In this document: in pieces, positions 9,395 to 16,421 of the stretch | Position numbering within the stretch: the first letter of the stretch is position 1 | Layout: the number at the start of each line of letters is the position of its first letter | NCBI GenBank assembly: GCA_027490155.1 | Contig: JAIXYP010000045.1 | Location: 62,001-126,000 of the forward strand | Reading direction: 5' to 3' | Source of the DNA: Cytophagaceae bacterium | Lineage (GTDB): Bacteria; Bacteroidota; Bacteroidia; Cytophagales; Flexibacteraceae | DNA: 64,000 nucleotides | Made by a program: the position numbers and the translations under genes | Notes under the pieces: model-generated | What the model was told of the DNA's origin: nothing | The model's database searches: none | Seen by the model: only the letters and a program-made list of their open reading frames with translations

Positions 9395-10633
9395 TTACAG
9401 GCCGAAGCCGATGGCAGCACCTAGGACGAAGTTGTTGATGCTGTGGATTGATTCGTAATTTTTGGGACTGCTTCCTATTATGTTGTCAGTCCGGCGATAA
9501 TAGATGTTAACCACCTGATTTTCGTATCCGACCTTACCAAGCAGATAAACCCTGTTGGTGATGTAGGACTTGATTCTGACATTAAGGCTGTATGCGAAAC
9601 TATTGAAGTAGTTGTCTTGACGTGCCACTTCATACCTTTCGATGTAATGTGTTGTTGGTCCAACTGGTCTACCAGTTGGTATTTGGTCTACATACGTTAG
9701 CTCAAACTCTGGCACGCGGACCGAGCCAAGGCCGAAGCCTGCATGGAACATAATGTCGGATTTGCGGGTCACGTTCAGGAAGTAAACCGGACCTCCAGAG
9801 ATGAAGGTACTGTTGTTTCCACTAGAGAAAGATACGTTATTCAGCCTGCCAGATATGGGTATTCCATTGTTGCCGTCGGGCAATGGGAGAGGACTTCGGT
9901 AGTCCGAATTGGCCAAATTATCGGGGTTGACACCGTTGGTGGTGGTTACGAAATTAGCAGTTGCTCCCCAGTTTTTGCTGAATCTGGTGATGATCCCAAA
10001 CTCAAAAAATCCACCTAAACCAGCGAATAATGAGCCCCCATCTTTGTAAAAGTTGCCGCTCCTGCTGCCTCCAAAATTGCCTAGTGGGTGGCCGTCGCCG
10101 CCAGCAGCTGTGGTGCCTCCGCCAATGGTATAGATCACTTCTTTGAACAGTGGCTCGCGATCCTCAGGGATCATGACTAGCTCCTTGGTATAATAATGCC
10201 TGTATGACCGGGCGCTGTCAGCTTTCGTCTTTGGGGATTCTAGTTTTGATTGTGTGACCACCTTGGTTTTAGTTTCCGCCTTAGGGGTGTTTGGGGTGGC
10301 TGGCGTCACCTCATTAGTTGGCGTAATGTTTGGGCTGGCTACAGGAGGCTCTGCTTTAACAAATGGCTTTTTGTTGTAGAATGTAGTGTCCGGGTCGCCA
10401 TTAATCTTGATCCAATCCAGCTGGTTTAGTTTTAGCCTATAGATAGGCCCAGACAGATTGGTGTAAGTATGATAGATTACTTCGTCTGAGGAGATTTCAT
10501 TAACTTTAACTTCCAGAACTGGTCCGTTGGTTTTCTTTAATTTGTCCTGAGCAAGTGACGAAAAACCGGAACCGGTTAGGATAGCCACTATGATGATCAA
10601 TCTGGAATATGCCTTCAGTTGTGCGTAGTTCAT
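9395..10633 (-). CDS. Predicted outer-membrane beta-barrel protein B1
   Basis: 412 residues from ATG 10633, with a signal peptide (IIIVAILTGSGFSSLAQ). An N-terminal small domain (QDKLKKTNGPVLEVKV, EVIYHTYTNLSGPIYRL, DWIKINGDPDT) is a type often found in Bacteroidota surface proteins. A Pro/Thr/Lys-rich linker (about residues 110-145) and a Gly/aromatic-rich beta-strand body follow, ending in a barrel-like strand GAAIGFGL. It is a clear paralogue of the protein at 12070-13275 (shared LVMIPEDREP/LVMLPTDKQP, RFSKNWG/RFSKRWG, and NSDYRSPLPLP/NSDYTSPLALP). It lies 46 bases behind the A1 gene and is likely co-transcribed. Function unknown. Confidence 0.75.
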   Translation of the reverse strand: MNYAQLKAYSRLIIIVAILTGSGFSSLAQDKLKKTNGPVLEVKVNEISSDEVIYHTYTNLSGPIYRLKLNQLDWIKINGDPDTTFYNKKPFVKAEPPVASPNITPTNEVTPATPNTPKAETKTKVVTQSKLESPKTKADSARSYRHYYTKELVMIPEDREPLFKEVIYTIGGGTTAAGGDGHPLGNFGGSRSGNFYKDGGSLFAGLGGFFEFGIITRFSKNWGATANFVTTTNGVNPDNLANSDYRSPLPLPDGNNGIPISGRLNNVSFSSGNNSTFISGGPVYFLNVTRKSDIMFHAGFGLGSVRVPEFELTYVDQIPTGRPVGPTTHYIERYEVARQDNYFNSFAYSLNVRIKSYITNRVYLLGKVGYENQVVNIYYRRTDNIIGSSPKNYESIHSINNFVLGAAIGFGL

Positions 10634-10679
10634 GATACGGGTGCCAGTGGTTATGGATAGCATTAAGGCAGAGCAAGGA

Positions 10680-11804
10680 TTAGAAATAGAGCCCAAAGCC
10701 AAAGGAAAGATTGATTTGAGAGATACCCTTGTCGATCGTACCGGAGCGCACGACCCGATTGCCTGGGTCATTGATGGTGAGGTTGAACTTTGGGTTTGAA
10801 TAGTAGTATGAAGCCTCGCCTGACAAATACCAGCCATTTTGATTCGGAATCATGAGCTGAAAATTTGCACCTAGTCTGTAACAGGTAGAGTTTGCACCCG
10901 TTGAGGAGATTAGTGATCGTCCAGAACTGTTGCCACTTCTGTATGGAGAGTTGTTGCGCTCTAATGACATGTAATGATGTACATAGCCAACGGTGGCAAA
11001 AACGTTGATATTCATCAGGCGGTGTTCGAACACCCGATAGGCAGGCCCAGCTGATGCGTGGGCAATAAAAATTCTACCTTCGTAAGTTGATTGTGGATAC
11101 CCAAACGGATCAGTTGAACTTGGTGTGATATTAGGAGAAAATGTCGGACCACTAAGGCCACCAGTCACCAGGAGTTGCCAACGTTTATGGACTTTGGTCC
11201 TGAGGTTTAATATGCCAGTATAGGCATTGGCAAGGCTAAGATCAGAGGATGTGAGTAGATCCTCATTGAGCTCACTGTTGGTCCAGAATGGCAAAGAGGC
11301 ACCAATGGAAATGTCCATTGAGTTTTCCAGCCGCCGCCAGCCATCGTACTCTTCTGAAGCCAGTGGAGTATAGATTGCATTGTAGGCCATGTGTTTGCTC
11401 GTGAGGGGTGCCTCGGCTGGGAGGTAGTTTGTACTACCGTTATTAAGGGCACCACTTCCTATCCGGTTGCTAGATCCGTAATACCCACTTGCTGAATAGA
11501 GGTTGGCGTAAGACGAAATCGCTTGGTACATATCTGGCGGAAGAACCCTACGAGCTGTAGGGCCTCGCAAGCCTCGGATGTTATTGAAATTGGCCCAGTA
11601 TAAGCCTTGGCCATATTGGGGTGCCTTCTCGATCTGGATGCTGTTTGAAGAAAGTGAAACAACGTTGCAGAGCCAGACGACCCCGTTTTCAAAAACAATG
11701 GTGTCCTGAAAGGATCCGGTTGTTTGTGCCTGGGTCCTGACTGAGGCAAGCAAGCCCCCAATAATCAGGATAATACCGATAAGGATTTTGTGTAAAAGTG
11801 TCAT
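10680..11804 (-). CDS. Predicted outer-membrane beta-barrel protein A1
   Basis: 374 residues with a signal peptide ending near RTQAQ. The N-terminal region (DTIVFENGVVWLCNVVSL, then NNIRGLRGPTARRVLPPD) is shared with the protein at 13328-14437 (DTIYYADGRVWKCQVLAY, NDLRGLRGPRAYKRLP), so the two are paralogues. The rest is made of alternating Gly/aromatic-rich strands (WYLSGEASYYYSNPKF) ending INLSFGFGLYF, as expected for an outer-membrane barrel. It is the first gene of the A1-B1 cassette. I recognise no named family. Confidence 0.75.
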   Translation of the reverse strand: MTLLHKILIGIILIIGGLLASVRTQAQTTGSFQDTIVFENGVVWLCNVVSLSSNSIQIEKAPQYGQGLYWANFNNIRGLRGPTARRVLPPDMYQAISSYANLYSASGYYGSSNRIGSGALNNGSTNYLPAEAPLTSKHMAYNAIYTPLASEEYDGWRRLENSMDISIGASLPFWTNSELNEDLLTSSDLSLANAYTGILNLRTKVHKRWQLLVTGGLSGPTFSPNITPSSTDPFGYPQSTYEGRIFIAHASAGPAYRVFEHRLMNINVFATVGYVHHYMSLERNNSPYRSGNSSGRSLISSTGANSTCYRLGANFQLMIPNQNGWYLSGEASYYYSNPKFNLTINDPGNRVVRSGTIDKGISQINLSFGFGLYF

Positions 11805-12069
11805 AGAGGATGGATGACGACTGGAGGTATAAATTATGGTATCTTGACTAGAGGGTAGCTAATTCAAGTCAGTTTGGCTCTGGTGCTAGGAATGGAACCA
11901 AGCAAACCAAGCGACTTGATCTAAGTGAATCTGATGCCAAAGTAGGGAATAAATCTGTCTATACGGCGATTAGTGCAAAAAGTTTTGGAGCTGCAATATT
12001 GACACTAACTAATCGTTACTGAGTTCTCATTTCCTTTAGCCAAGGGGCTGGTATATTGGCTAATAGGGG
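11805..12069 (-). other. Spacer between the two barrel cassettes
   Basis: 265 bases separate the B2 stop from the A1 start. This is much more than the 46-52 bases within each cassette, so A1-B1 probably has its own promoter here, though I find no exact TAnnTTTG close to the A1 start. Confidence 0.4.
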
Positions 12070-13275
12070 TTAAAGCCCTAAGCCAATGGCAGCGCCAAAA
12101 ACCAAGTTATTATAGTTATGATAGGCAGAGTAGTTCGTTGTTCTGCCACCACCAAAGACATTATCAGTACGTTGAAACGTGACATTGGTGACCTGGCCAT
12201 CATAACCGATTTTGCCAATGACATAAACCCCAGACCTGATATAGGTTTTGACTCTAACACCTAGGCTATATGCCACACCTAGGATGTTGCTATTGATGGG
12301 CTGGTAGACCTCGGTGTAGGGTCGTGCTGGCGTTAAAGTCTGCGCATTGCCACTAATTTTATCCTGATAGGCGAGTTTGAAGTTAGGCATAAATATAGAT
12401 CCTAATCCTAGCCCCGAATGTACGATAAGATCGGTTCGCCTACTGAGAGTTTGATAAAACGTTGGCCCACCTGTAACAAACATATTCATGAAGTTATTGG
12501 AGACTTCGACAGCAGTTAAACTCTTATTTAGTGGTCCACCAGCCGAGTTAGGTGGTAGTGCCAAAGGTGAGGTATAGTCTGAGTTCATCAAGTTTTGCCC
12601 ATCGAAACCATTGGTTGCATAGACATAGTTAATAAATCCGCCCCATCGTTTGCTAAAGCGTGCCAAGGCACCGAGCTCGAAGTAGCCACCTTGAGTTGCA
12701 AATAGGGCACCGCCTCTCTGGTAAAAGTTGGCATTTTTACCAATGCCAAAATCTCCAAATGGATGTCCATTATCTTGTGCCCAGTTGGCGCCACCGCCTA
12801 CTGTGATGATAAGCTCTTTTAGCTTGGGTTGTTTGTCAGTAGGTAACATCACCAAGTCATTGGTGAAAATGTTACGGTAGGCCAAGGCAGAGTCCCCTGC
12901 TGTTTTGGCAATGGGTATTTGTTTGGGTTGCCCTTGCTCGGTTGTGTCAACCTCATAGAGTTTGTCATCTGGGATTACTTGGTCGTCGGCCAGTTTCACT
13001 GGGAATAGGACCCTGACTTTGTCATGTGCGTAGCGAATGGTGTCTGGCTCCCCATCCACCTTGATCCAGTCAACAAGCTTAAGCCTTAGTTTGTAGACAG
13101 GACCAGTAGGATTAATATAGGTTTGATATGTAACCTCTTCAGGCTCTATCTTCAGTATCTTGACCTTGATCAAGTTGCCGTCTGATTTTTTGATTTGGTC
13201 TTGGGCAAGCACCTCTAGGCTCATCGCCAACAGACATACCACAAGTGTCCAGAAGGAGCGTTTGATATTGTTCAT
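12070..13275 (-). CDS. Predicted outer-membrane beta-barrel protein B2
   Basis: 401 residues, signal peptide cut near SLEVLAQ. Same plan as B1 (9395-10633): N-terminal domain QDQIKKSDGNLIKVKI with DWIKVDGEPDT, a linker, then LVMLPTDKQPKLKELI and a long beta-strand body ending FGAAIGLGL. Many short blocks are identical to B1 while the linkers differ, consistent with an old tandem duplication. It lies 52 bases behind A2. Probably an outer-membrane protein of unknown role. Confidence 0.75.
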   Translation of the reverse strand: MNNIKRSFWTLVVCLLAMSLEVLAQDQIKKSDGNLIKVKILKIEPEEVTYQTYINPTGPVYKLRLKLVDWIKVDGEPDTIRYAHDKVRVLFPVKLADDQVIPDDKLYEVDTTEQGQPKQIPIAKTAGDSALAYRNIFTNDLVMLPTDKQPKLKELIITVGGGANWAQDNGHPFGDFGIGKNANFYQRGGALFATQGGYFELGALARFSKRWGGFINYVYATNGFDGQNLMNSDYTSPLALPPNSAGGPLNKSLTAVEVSNNFMNMFVTGGPTFYQTLSRRTDLIVHSGLGLGSIFMPNFKLAYQDKISGNAQTLTPARPYTEVYQPINSNILGVAYSLGVRVKTYIRSGVYVIGKIGYDGQVTNVTFQRTDNVFGGGRTTNYSAYHNYNNLVFGAAIGLGL

Positions 13276-13327
13276 TTCAGAATGTACTTTGATAGTTAGT
13301 TATGGGTATTATGCCATCAAATAGATA

Positions 13328-14437
13328 TTAGAACAGAAAGCCAACACCAATCGAACCGTTTAGGATGGACATGTATTTGGTAAATCTCTCGTTGCGTTCG
13401 TTAACGTTGCCAGGGTCTCGGAGGGTGACAGCAAACTCAGGTGCGGCATTGTAAATATTAGCGTTAGCCGCAAAATACCATCCCTTAGATTGCGGGATCA
13501 TGATCTGTAGATTGGCACCAAGGGTGTAGCATGGGGCATTAGCACCAGCCCTAGAGACGACATCCTTTACTGAACTTCTTGGGTCAGATCCTCTCCTCTC
13601 GATCCGGAATACATTGTGGACAAAGCCTAACGTGCCGTAAAGGTTCAGTATGGTGCCAGGGCGATTAATGGCACGGTATGATGGTCCTACTGAGGCATAG
13701 GTCATAAACATCGCACCCGAGTACAGTCTATTTTGGCTATAGAATAAGTTTGACTGAATGTTGGTCGCAAATTGGTGCTCGACCAATCCACCCATGACTA
13801 ATACCTGCCAATGGTCGCTGATGCTACTCCGGTACTGAAGTTGCACCGCTATGGTTGGGTTTGTTTCGAAGTCACTCGTTTCTAAAAAGTCTTTCTTTTG
13901 TGCTTGGCCTAGCCCAAGTGGTATGGAGATCCCTCCTAAAAAGTCGATGCTATTTTCTCGTTTTTGCCAGGCCTTTAGCTCGACGTTGGCCTCAGCGGTA
14001 TAGTTAGCACGGTAGGGGAAGTACCTGTTTGAGATCGGGGCCTTGATGGGCATATAGTTAACCGTGTCTGACTTCGAGAATCTAAACTTACGAGCGCCAG
14101 GTTTTGTGATTGGTCGGTTGCCGAGTTCATAACTGTTGATGGCTTCGTATATGCCTATGGGTAAGCGCTTATAGGCCCTGGGTCCGCGTAGTCCCCGCAG
14201 GTCATTTAGGTTGGCATCAAATCGTCCACCACCATGTTCGGGCGATCTATTGATGGTTACGATATTGGTTTTATATGCAAGCACCTGGCATTTCCAGACC
14301 CTGCCATCAGCATAATAGATCGTGTCCTTGTAGTCCTCAAGGTCTTGGCCAGAAGCTGTTGACACCATACCTACCAGCATCATGAACATGAGGACAAAAC
14401 CAACGGATTTTGGTTGGCCTAATCGTGGGATAAACAT
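13328..14437 (-). CDS. Predicted outer-membrane beta-barrel protein A2
   Basis: 369 residues from ATG 14437, which places a good signal peptide (VGFVLMFMMLVGMVSTASGQ) at the N-terminus; a longer start at 14518 would add an unrelated hydrophobic stretch. Paralogue of A1 through the RGLRGP region and the barrel body (WYFAANANIYNAAPEF versus WYLSGEASYYYSNPKF). It ends SILNGSIGVGFLF. First gene of the A2-B2 cassette. Confidence 0.75.
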   Translation of the reverse strand: MFIPRLGQPKSVGFVLMFMMLVGMVSTASGQDLEDYKDTIYYADGRVWKCQVLAYKTNIVTINRSPEHGGGRFDANLNDLRGLRGPRAYKRLPIGIYEAINSYELGNRPITKPGARKFRFSKSDTVNYMPIKAPISNRYFPYRANYTAEANVELKAWQKRENSIDFLGGISIPLGLGQAQKKDFLETSDFETNPTIAVQLQYRSSISDHWQVLVMGGLVEHQFATNIQSNLFYSQNRLYSGAMFMTYASVGPSYRAINRPGTILNLYGTLGFVHNVFRIERRGSDPRSSVKDVVSRAGANAPCYTLGANLQIMIPQSKGWYFAANANIYNAAPEFAVTLRDPGNVNERNERFTKYMSILNGSIGVGFLF

Positions 14438-14709
14438 AGATTTTGTGGGGCTGGTTCGGGATGTGAAGGCTAGTAGTACTATGCTATACAGGCAAAGGAT
14501 AGGCGTAATAGCTGACACCTAGAGCAAACAGATGCCAATATATGGCAGTTAAGGGGGTATGCAAAACCATTAGATATGATTTGTAATATATCGGGGTAAT
14601 GGTCTCTGTTTTGGTGCTTAGCCTTCTGGGTCAGGCTGCATGTGCAACCAGTTTGTATTGTATGTGATCTTATCCAGATTCCTCACCTGACCTATCCCTA
14701 GCAATAGCA

Positions 14710-14737
14710 TTGCGGATGCCTCTCATTCTTATCTTTG
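14710..14737 (+). promoter_or_regulatory. Promoter of the sigma-like gene
   Basis: TTG at 14710-14712, a 17-base spacer and TATCTTTG at 14730-14737: a near-perfect Bacteroidota promoter. The ATG follows six bases later at 14744, so the transcript should be leaderless or nearly so. Confidence 0.65.
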
Positions 14738-14743
14738 TGACCG

Positions 14744-15217
14744 ATGCGTAATCTCAAGTCCAAACCGTCCCGCTCAGGCACCAAGTCCAAAACTAACCAG
14801 GCCATCAAACCATTGCCTGCCATGTCGGCCTTTGGTGGCATCTCGACGTTGGACAAGGATGCCCTGCCAGCTCAGTCGGCCTATTTGCCATTGGGTGACT
14901 ACCTAGAAAAGCTGGATGTGCCTGAGCCTATGTCCGATGAGGACCTTTGGGCACTGATCAAGAAGGGGTCTGCCGACCAGAAGACAATGCCGATCATGGC
15001 CAAGTACTTCCAGCGAGATATGATCGCTATGGTCTATGAGCTTCAGTCTGACACCTTGCCACTGACAAGGTTGTACGGGCTTGCAACGGTTGGCTTGGTC
15101 CAGGCTTCGATGTTTGCGAAGGACCTTGAAGAATTCCGTGCCTTTTTTCTTGATTTTGGCCGCAAAACAATCAATATGTACATAGATGCACGCCGAAACG
15201 AAGGCCTAAGCACCTAA
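14744..15217 (+). CDS. Small protein resembling sigma-70 regions 1.2-2, upstream of rpoD
   Basis: 157 residues. The first 45 are basic and low-complexity (KSKPSRSGTKSKTNQ). From there it can be aligned almost without gaps to the RpoD encoded just downstream: LGDYLEKL with [25 protein letters not shown] with [32 protein letters not shown] with [24 protein letters not shown] with RGFKFIS. It stops where region 2 ends, so there is no region 3 or 4. The region 2.3-2.4 tryptophans needed for promoter opening (VWWIRQ) are absent (DFGRKTIN). I infer a diverged sigma-domain protein that might contact RNA polymerase. This is my own alignment by eye and the function is unproven. Confidence 0.7.
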   Translation: MRNLKSKPSRSGTKSKTNQAIKPLPAMSAFGGISTLDKDALPAQSAYLPLGDYLEKLDVPEPMSDEDLWALIKKGSADQKTMPIMAKYFQRDMIAMVYELQSDTLPLTRLYGLATVGLVQASMFAKDLEEFRAFFLDFGRKTINMYIDARRNEGLST

Positions 15218-15438
15218 GTGCCAAATGTTGATCTCGAAACTTGAGTATTTAGGCAGGTTTAGGGGCTATCAAATACAGGTATCTACCTGACAGCCTGTCT
15301 TTTCTGGAACGCAAGTTGCAATAAGCCAATCTGTCTGCAAAGGCACAATCAGCAGTCGAAACACAATCAGTACGGAACTGAAAAGCACCATGAGCCATCT
15401 TTAGGTAGTACATTTTGTCATTATGTCCGACATCGTGC

Positions 15439-15469
15439 TTGACAATGGCAGTATTATCTGCTAACTTTG
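15439..15469 (+). promoter_or_regulatory. rpoD promoter
   Basis: TTGAC at 15439-15443, then TAACTTTG at 15462-15469 with 20 bases between TTG and TA. The leader to the rpoD ATG at 15558 is about 80-85 nt. Confidence 0.6.
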
Positions 15470-15557
15470 CAGTTTTGCAAAAGCGCCCACCTATTTGCCG
15501 CACTATGCTGTGCTGGCTGACATCTGGGCAATCCCCCCGCGAAAGCCTCCCTGGCCA

Positions 15558-16421
15558 ATGAGACAGCTAAAGATCAGCAAACAGATTACCAACCGTGAAA
15601 GTCAGTCGCTAGACAAGTACTTGCAAGAGATCGGGAAGGTGGACTTGCTAACACCAGAAGAGGAAGTTGACCTAGCTAAACGCATTAGGGAAGGGGACCA
15701 ACTGGCCCTTGAAAAGCTCACGAAAGCCAACCTGCGCTTTGTGGTCTCTGTTGCAAAACAATACCAAAACCAAGGTCTCAGCCTCGGAGACTTGATCAAT
15801 GAGGGTAACCTTGGATTGATCAAGGCTGCACAACGCTTTGACGAAACCCGCGGTTTTAAATTTATCTCTTACGCCGTTTGGTGGATCCGTCAGTCGATCC
15901 TGCAGGCTTTGGCCGAGCAGAGCCGCATTGTACGTCTGCCACTCAACAGGGTAGGGTCGCTTAACAAGATCAGCAAAACGTTTAGCGAGCTAGAGCAACG
16001 CTTCGAGCGTGAGCCAAGCCCAGACGAGCTAGCTGAAGAGCTGGACCTTAACACTGCTGAGGTAGTTGATACACTCAAGATCAGTGGCCGCCATGTTAGT
16101 ATGGATGCGCCGTTTGTTCAGGGCGAAGAGAACTCCTTGCTTGACGTTTTGGAGAACGATAGCGAAGTCACCCCAGATAGCGAGTTGATTAACGACAGCT
16201 TGCGTCGTGAGGTGCAACGCGCCATCGGTACACTGACCCAGCGCGAGTCAGACGTAATCACCCTTTACTTTGGTCTTAATGGCGAACATGCCATGACGCT
16301 CGAAGAAATCGGTGAGAAGTTCAATCTGACCCGTGAGCGTGTCCGCCAGATCAAGGAGAAAGCTATTCGTCGTTTGCGTCATAATAGCCGCAGCAAAGCG
16401 CTGAAGCCATACCTAGGCTAG
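15558..16421 (+). CDS. rpoD: Primary sigma factor RpoD (SigA)
   Basis: 287 residues from ATG 15558, the usual length for the Bacteroidota primary sigma, which lacks the N-terminal 1.1 region of proteobacterial RpoD. An upstream in-frame TTG at 15495 is not needed. Region 1.2 is at residues 15-45, region 2 at about 50-120 ([29 protein letters not shown]), region 3 at about 125-200 ([13 protein letters not shown]) and region 4 at about 215-275 ([18 protein letters not shown], the -35-binding helix). It directs core RNA polymerase to TTG/TAnnTTTG promoters, several of which are visible in this window, including its own. Confidence 0.97.

Follow-up and report, generated by a model that had tools for sequence, protein, structure and literature searches.

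A sigma region 1.2–2-like protein encoded beside rpoD in a Cytophagaceae genus, a candidate accessory regulator of transcription

In a 64,000-nucleotide stretch of the genome of a Cytophagaceae bacterium (hereafter the window; GCA_027490155.1, contig JAIXYP010000045.1, positions 62,001 to 126,000 of the forward strand; the host assembly holds 3.99 Mb in 69 contigs), the gene for the primary sigma factor RpoD (15558..16421, plus strand; 287 amino acids; Sigma70 regions 1.2, 2, 3 and 4 are all matched strongly) lies 340 bp downstream of an open reading frame (ORF) on the same strand, confirmed at its stated position (14744..15217, stop codon included), that encodes a 157-amino-acid sigma-1.2/2-like protein we refer to as P1. 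P1 is best read as a sigma-1.2/2 domain that is restricted to one genus and has been neofunctionalised as a regulator. In particular, we tentatively favour a history in which a functional P1 arose from regions 1.2–2.4 of a primary-type sigma factor, lost sigma activity, and took on a new role as a small accessory protein that regulates transcription; of a regulator, a functioning sigma factor and a dead copy, P1 is probably the first. Comparison of two species shows strong purifying selection on the P1 gene. Descent from sigma regions 1.2–2, with a predicted sigma-2 fold that includes region 1.2, is well supported, as is the loss from P1 of regions 3 and 4, of the tryptophans, and of the polar residues of the canonical clamp contact.

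Likeness of P1 to primary sigma factors

A first-pass annotation made from the sequence alone had proposed that P1 is a stand-alone look-alike of sigma regions 1.2–2, and structure prediction, named beforehand as a possible refutation, returned a sigma-2 fold. We compared two AlphaFold2 models, one predicted from the single sequence without an alignment and the other from P1 together with its orthologue in a congener. In both models a disordered tail is followed by helices at residues 50–56, 65–75, 82–99, 107–124 and 128–152; the mean predicted local distance difference test score (pLDDT) is 65–66, with block means of 67–90 across residues 61–150 (67–89 in the single-sequence model and 71–90 in the pair model). 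When the models were searched with Foldseek against the PDB, ranks 1–20 (single-sequence model) and 1–25 (pair model) were all sigma chains, judged by title and chain letter, with unrelated chains mixed in below; rank 1 was sigma-S, with probability 1.00 and E-values of 0.077 and 0.021, respectively. In VIA-align superpositions spanning residues 48–156, and so covering region 1.2, P1 aligned with Staphylococcus aureus SigA (Z 10.5, root-mean-square deviation 3.0, 107 residues) and with Escherichia coli sigma-S (Z 10.2, root-mean-square deviation 2.6, 102 residues). (Note that VIA-align was run on Foldseek's own candidates and that Z values this high can arise by chance among helical proteins; what makes the sigma fold persuasive is the exclusively sigma listing at the top of the Foldseek search, rather than the Z values.) In a fold search of a viral library, ranks 1, 3 and 4 likewise carry the names of sigma factors, and rank 2 carries no name. 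Separately, chain C of PDB entry 9n9q ('RNA-guided transcription complex') appeared at rank 50 for the pair model, with probability 0.25.

At the level of sequence, residues 48–156 of P1 are colinear with regions 1.2–2.4 of the neighbouring RpoD. The near-colinearity that had first drawn attention to P1 is borne out by the pairs Y53/Y21, offset by 32, and LPL105-107/LSL74-76, GLVQA117-121/GLIKA86-90 and F131/F100, each offset by 31; the last helix could be shifted by a few residues, in that the structural alignment, judged by its ends, favours F131/F102 rather than F131/F100, and MAFFT pairs F134 with F100. A BLASTP alignment of P1 with RpoD covers 88 columns at 28% identity (E 2e-5, for a single comparison), which is weak evidence alone because unrelated proteins at loci picked from ~390 genomes come to about this level (tblastn against one 3.2-kb locus: L031, 1.8e-5; L032, 5.5e-5). 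Against 42 primary-type sigma factors of Bacteroidota, BLAST gave 14–34 bits (E 1.7e-5 to 79), and all 42 alignments end at P1 residue 134–139. The closest sigma factor within the host genome is RpoD, at 29.3 bits (the 11 others reach at most 21.2); since RpoD is not at the top of the 42, P1 is unlike a recent copy of it.

Profile comparisons show a similarity to sigma factors that is weak but above chance. A profile of primary-type sigma factors over regions 1.2–2.4, to which E. coli RpoS and RpoH were added, gives P1 6.1 bits, a score exceeded by 2 of 5,000 shuffles (3,467 of the 5,000 returned any score), and P1 ranks second after RpoD among the 141 stop-to-stop frames of at least 80 amino acids in the window. 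With the region 2.2 segment alone, 1 of 1,000 shuffles did as well. With hhalign, the probability of a sigma relationship is only 18.7% (P 0.0013, P1 against primary sigma factors). When, in the reverse direction, a profile of P1 and its orthologue was searched against 395 genomes of the class (E ≤ 0.1), three of the nine non-self matches, including ranks 1 and 2, were primary-type sigma factors whose in-register alignment starts at residue 49 or 50 of P1; the remaining six lacked similarity to RpoD. The per-genome E-values (0.012–0.066) are not significant across 395 genomes, and the weight of this search lies in RpoD being singled out, not in the E-values. In 390 genomes of the order, the profile returned both genuine copies and a further 30 matches, spread over 25 genomes (E 0.026–0.49), 18 of which were examined. 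The 18 comprise one RpoD (L036, rank 6 among non-self matches), one ECF (extracytoplasmic function)-sigma-like protein aligned out of register (L048), three proteins that we take to be PP-loop/TtcA-like (L032, L039 and L047), and 13 without similarity to RpoD, several of them short frames.

These comparisons bear on whether P1 is related to sigma factors at all, or is an orphan helical protein that resembles them by chance. The latter would fit the weak statistics, the unrelated proteins that match RpoD's BLAST E-value after selection from many genomes, the uncertain register of the last helix, and the ease with which helical folds match; against it, sequence, reverse profile search and fold agree, the top 20–25 Foldseek matches are all sigma factors, and region 1.2 is included in the match. 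We consider a chance resemblance very improbable.

Comparison of P1 with its congener orthologue revealed 34 synonymous and 3 non-synonymous differences (S11P, A43S and M63I), corresponding to a synonymous rate (dS) of 0.41, a non-synonymous rate (dN) of 0.008 and a dN/dS of 0.02; under neutrality, the probability of 3 or fewer non-synonymous differences out of 37 is ~6e-19. The dN/dS of rpoD is 0.009 over the available 176 codons, and that of three neighbouring genes, which we read from their translations as outer-membrane-type, is 0.06–0.10; the non-synonymous share in P1 compares with that of the neighbours at P 0.022 and with that of rpoD at P 0.63. Codons 64–157 carry 21 synonymous and 0 non-synonymous differences, so the residues replaced in P1 are themselves held. 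P1 is truncated, divergent and adjoins rpoD, as a decaying RpoD paralogue might, and decay had been put forward as the plain alternative. However, the low dN/dS and the departure from neutrality, a reading frame intact in both species, and a search of the 340 bp downstream of P1 that found no remnant of regions 3–4 refute decay for the two species and leave it extremely improbable.

Replaced contact residues and the proposed role of P1

P1 consists of a basic tail (codons 1–46; 14744..14881, plus strand; isoelectric point (pI) 10.7), predicted to be disordered (block-mean pLDDT 34–49), and an acidic sigma 1.2–2-like domain of five helices (codons 47–157; 14882..15214, plus strand; pI 4.8). The ORF stops after region 2, so that P1 does end before regions 3 and 4, as the first-pass annotation had stated. 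The domain includes a region 2.2-like helix (codons 103–123; 15050..15112, plus strand), in which R109, G112, L113 and T115 stand at polar clamp-contact positions and the hydrophobic positions are mostly kept, and a helix without tryptophan in place of regions 2.3–2.4 (codons 128–152; 15125..15199, plus strand).

The sigma-70 residues that we take to contact the beta-prime clamp are D403, Q406, E407 and N409. RpoD has D78, N81, E82 and N84 at these places, where P1 has the four replacements just named. Among the 11 other sigma factors of the host, D or E stands at the D403 place in 11 of 11, Q at the Q406 place in 9 (H and L in the others) and E or D at the E407 place in 10; the N409 place is likewise unconserved among them, and E. 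coli RpoH also keeps the D..Q/N,E motif almost entirely. The earlier claim that the clamp-binding part is the best kept therefore stands for the region 2.2 helix as a segment, chiefly at its hydrophobic positions, and fails for its near-invariant polar contacts. The loss of the melting tryptophans is confirmed: the single tryptophan of P1, W69, lies outside the region, so both are absent in any register. D137 and F138 of P1 fall at W433 and W434, F134 at Y430, and K141 at Q437, in an uncertain register taken from the ends of the structural alignment with sigma-S.

These replacements argue against P1 docking on the beta-prime clamp helices in the canonical way, either to block RpoD, as the first-pass annotation had considered, or to pair with a region-4 protein in the manner of RsoA–SigO or gp55–gp33. 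It is chiefly through region 2.2 that sigma factors meet the beta-prime coiled coil (PMC4598750), and the region 2.2 helix is the best-aligned segment of P1, as such docking would have it. However, the D..Q/N,E motif, which RpoD, RpoH and the 11 host sigma factors keep almost entirely, reads R..G,L in P1, and in gp55, which does dock on the clamp, the 2.2-equivalent motif is highly conserved (PMC2988020). With the motif rewritten and the tryptophans gone, P1 is unlikely to dock in the canonical way, whether as a competitor or as part of a split sigma factor, and as an account of P1 we consider such docking quite improbable. Nor was a region-4-only partner recognised among the 11 places in the genome at which PF04545 exceeds its cut-off, 10 of which fall in genes with a region 2 match as well, or among those read of nine weaker matches; one of the nine lies in a region 2-matching gene and one is, by our reading, Cro/C1-like. 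The eleventh place, at C33:24468, was rejected as a partner, as we read it as a fragment of a LuxR-type regulator at a contig end. One of the host sigma ORFs, L061 (G000:C7:9300-10900), is a long ORF with sigma-70 region 2 and an extended C-terminal part (463 amino acids by search, cut at the fetched end), and exceeds the other ten non-RpoD sigma ORFs of the host genome in length.

P1 might instead be a decoy in the manner of PhyR, binding a factor that sequesters sigma-2 of RpoD (an anti-sigma factor or a phage inhibitor) and so freeing RpoD. There is precedent for a sigma-like domain without sigma activity (PMC4598750); but P1, at 157 amino acids and with no Pfam match, has no receiver domain, and it has few polar residues in common with RpoD, so that an RpoD-specific binder would see little shared between the two. 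We regard a decoy as distinctly unlikely.

To place the replacements in context, we defined as invariant those positions held in at least 95% of 42 primary-type sigma factors, 38 of them hydrophobic and 27 polar. P1 is identical at 12 of the 38 hydrophobic positions and hydrophobic at 29; at the 27 polar positions it is identical at 4 (17 are still polar), against 12 for sigma-S and 14 for sigma-70. The ECF-type factors of the host keep 2–7 of these polar residues, and so it is not this overall count but the region 2.2 motif that sets P1 apart. The main rival to our account, that P1 was exapted away from transcription, with its sigma-2 fold serving as a scaffold for another task and its place beside rpoD being a scar of tandem duplication, draws on this low polar count and on the fact that no regulatory partner was found. 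P1 adjoins rpoD in both species (two genomes only), which speaks for a link to transcription, and we think exaptation unlikely, if well worth keeping in view.

In the regulator that we tentatively favour, the sigma-2 fold would now serve as a protein-binding module with altered contacts, its target would be RNA polymerase, RpoD, or another factor acting on them, the basic tail may touch nucleic acid or an acidic partner, and the outcome would be a tuning of RpoD-dependent transcription. Several points weigh against this account. Sequence homology to sigma factors is weak (HMM 6.1 bits, hhalign 18.7%), and no Pfam, NCBIfam, PHROG or PADLOC family is significant for P1: Pfam gave none at E ≤ 10, and hence neither Sigma70_r1_2 nor Sigma70_r2, the sole PHROG match had an E-value of 0.35, and phmmer of P1 against the PDB returned nothing at E ≤ 10. 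Segments other than region 2.2 show no clear excess over shuffles, the last helix none at all (shuffles as good, per 1,000: 297 for residues 47–60, 90 for 63–76, 82 for 80–102 and 539 for 126–152). The significance of the predicted fold's Foldseek matches is low, the estimate of selection comes from one species pair, and the functional link between P1 and RpoD is drawn solely from likeness and adjacency.

Occurrence, promoters and the P1–rpoD gap

Both genomes of the genus carry P1, against 0 of 9 other genomes of the family, which makes it a genus-level feature. The expectation that relatives would carry a similar protein beside rpoD thus holds for one congener, at the same place and with the same spacing to rpoD, and not for the nine others (one of which, G007, had no RpoD match either, nor any match to the bridged profile described next). 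The congener is a metagenome-assembled genome of a Cytophagaceae bacterium and the sole relative among the named genome contigs; its contig G001:C188 stops within rpoD, at 176 of 287 residues. A profile that bridged P1 and RpoD recovered from 11 family genomes RpoD, RpoD-like genes and P1, and no other stand-alone copy. No further P1 copy was recognised in the 390 genomes of the order or the 395 of the class, which are overlapping samples; tblastn against phages and plasmids gave best E-values of 2 and 4, at chance level, and none of four candidate stretches in viral contigs was confirmed. In the six neighbourhoods of relatives examined, other genes stand upstream of rpoD, which from their translations we read as metallo-hydrolase-like (three), RecQ-like (two) and PNPase-like (one). 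In one family member we also observed a second RpoD-like gene, 59% identical to host RpoD and a candidate group-2 sigma factor (L013, G006:C11:225043-225903).

P1 appears to have its own promoter, as the first-pass annotation had held. A putative −33 element, TTG (14710..14712, plus strand), stands 17 nt before the −7 box TATCTTTG (14730..14737, plus strand), which has the form TAnnTTTG and is the same in the congener. TAnnTTTG is the sigma-A −7 box, located at −12 to −5 (PMC9723704), and together the two elements fit the Bacteroidota pattern. The predicted start, at ~14742, is 2 nt ahead of the ATG; leaderless mRNAs are 5.5% of mRNAs in a flavobacterium (PMC9723704). The box is unchanged in the congener though 30 of 220 aligned upstream bases differ (13.6%). 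(Note that TANNTTTG is frequent by chance, with 55 found and 43 expected in the window; counting both strands, 13 have a TTG at 16–23 nt, two of these sharing a box, which is a bare count without a chance expectation.) For rpoD, a putative −33 element, TTG (15439..15441, plus strand), lies 20 nt before the −7 box TAACTTTG (15462..15469, plus strand). A simple scan found no terminator-like plus-strand site between P1 and rpoD, so read-through is possible.

The gap between P1 and rpoD (15218..15557) is unusually conserved and neither obviously coding nor structured. It is 96.5% identical between the two species, as compared with ~86–88% in three other intergenic stretches (12 of 340 sites differ in the gap and 67 of 537 in those stretches; Fisher P 2.8e-6), and it also differs less than the fourfold sites of rpoD (13 of 72; P 5e-5). 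A match to the gap was found in 2 of 29 sampled genomes, both of the genus. Two candidate explanations were rejected: Rfam returned neither 6S nor any other known RNA at E ≤ 1, with folding z-scores of 0.20 and −0.46 over 15218–15470, and an 84-amino-acid frame on the minus strand carries several amino-acid differences between the species. The gap could be a control region of rpoD, and local recombination might also be the source of its conservation. These observations raise the possibility, which we consider doubtful, that a free-standing P1, whose altered docking and melting chemistry selection has since kept fixed, works in trans on transcription that depends on RpoD, and perhaps on rpoD itself by way of the 340-bp gap.

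Comparison with known systems and a further observation in the window

PhyR, a sigma factor mimic of alphaproteobacteria, resembles P1 in having a sigma-like domain without being a sigma factor (PMC4598750); P1 differs in comprising region 1.2–2 only, in being of primary-sigma type, and in having neither a receiver nor a sigma-4-like part. The similarity of T4 gp55 to sigma factors is likewise limited to domain 2, but gp55 has a conserved region 2.2-equivalent core-binding motif and a sliding-clamp-binding epitope and works with gp33 (PMC2988020), whereas P1 is without the canonical 2.2 motif and has no recognised partner. RsoA is, like P1, a stand-alone sigma-2-like polypeptide encoded in a cellular genome, but it has a sigma-4 partner, SigO, and the pair initiates transcription (PMC10028694); none such was recognised for P1. 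(A table in PMC10141391 seems to assign the RsoA and SigO domains differently.) The Bacteroidota RpoD is itself the product of the adjacent gene and is colinear with P1 over regions 1.2–2.4 at ~28–32% identity; unlike RpoD, P1 carries a basic tail and lacks regions 3–4, the two tryptophans and the polar residues of the clamp contact. Among the papers listed by a literature search whose scope left out most subscription papers, we found no stand-alone sigma-2 or sigma-decoy protein of the P1 type.

The sigma mimic and split sigma factors compared here derive from an ECF-type factor, a phage and Bacillus. If our account of P1 is correct, a primary-sigma domain has become a protein without sigma function, encoded next to the gene it came from; this would illustrate how copying and rewiring can affect the best-conserved part of the initiation machinery, and P1 would offer a compact handle on the control of an unusual primary sigma factor of Bacteroidota.

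Elsewhere in the window, on the minus strand at 9395–14518, two related pairs of outer-membrane-type ORFs are seemingly arranged in tandem (9395–10837 with 12070–13275, and 10680–11804 with 13328–14518); judged by eye, they are perhaps a duplicated gene pair.
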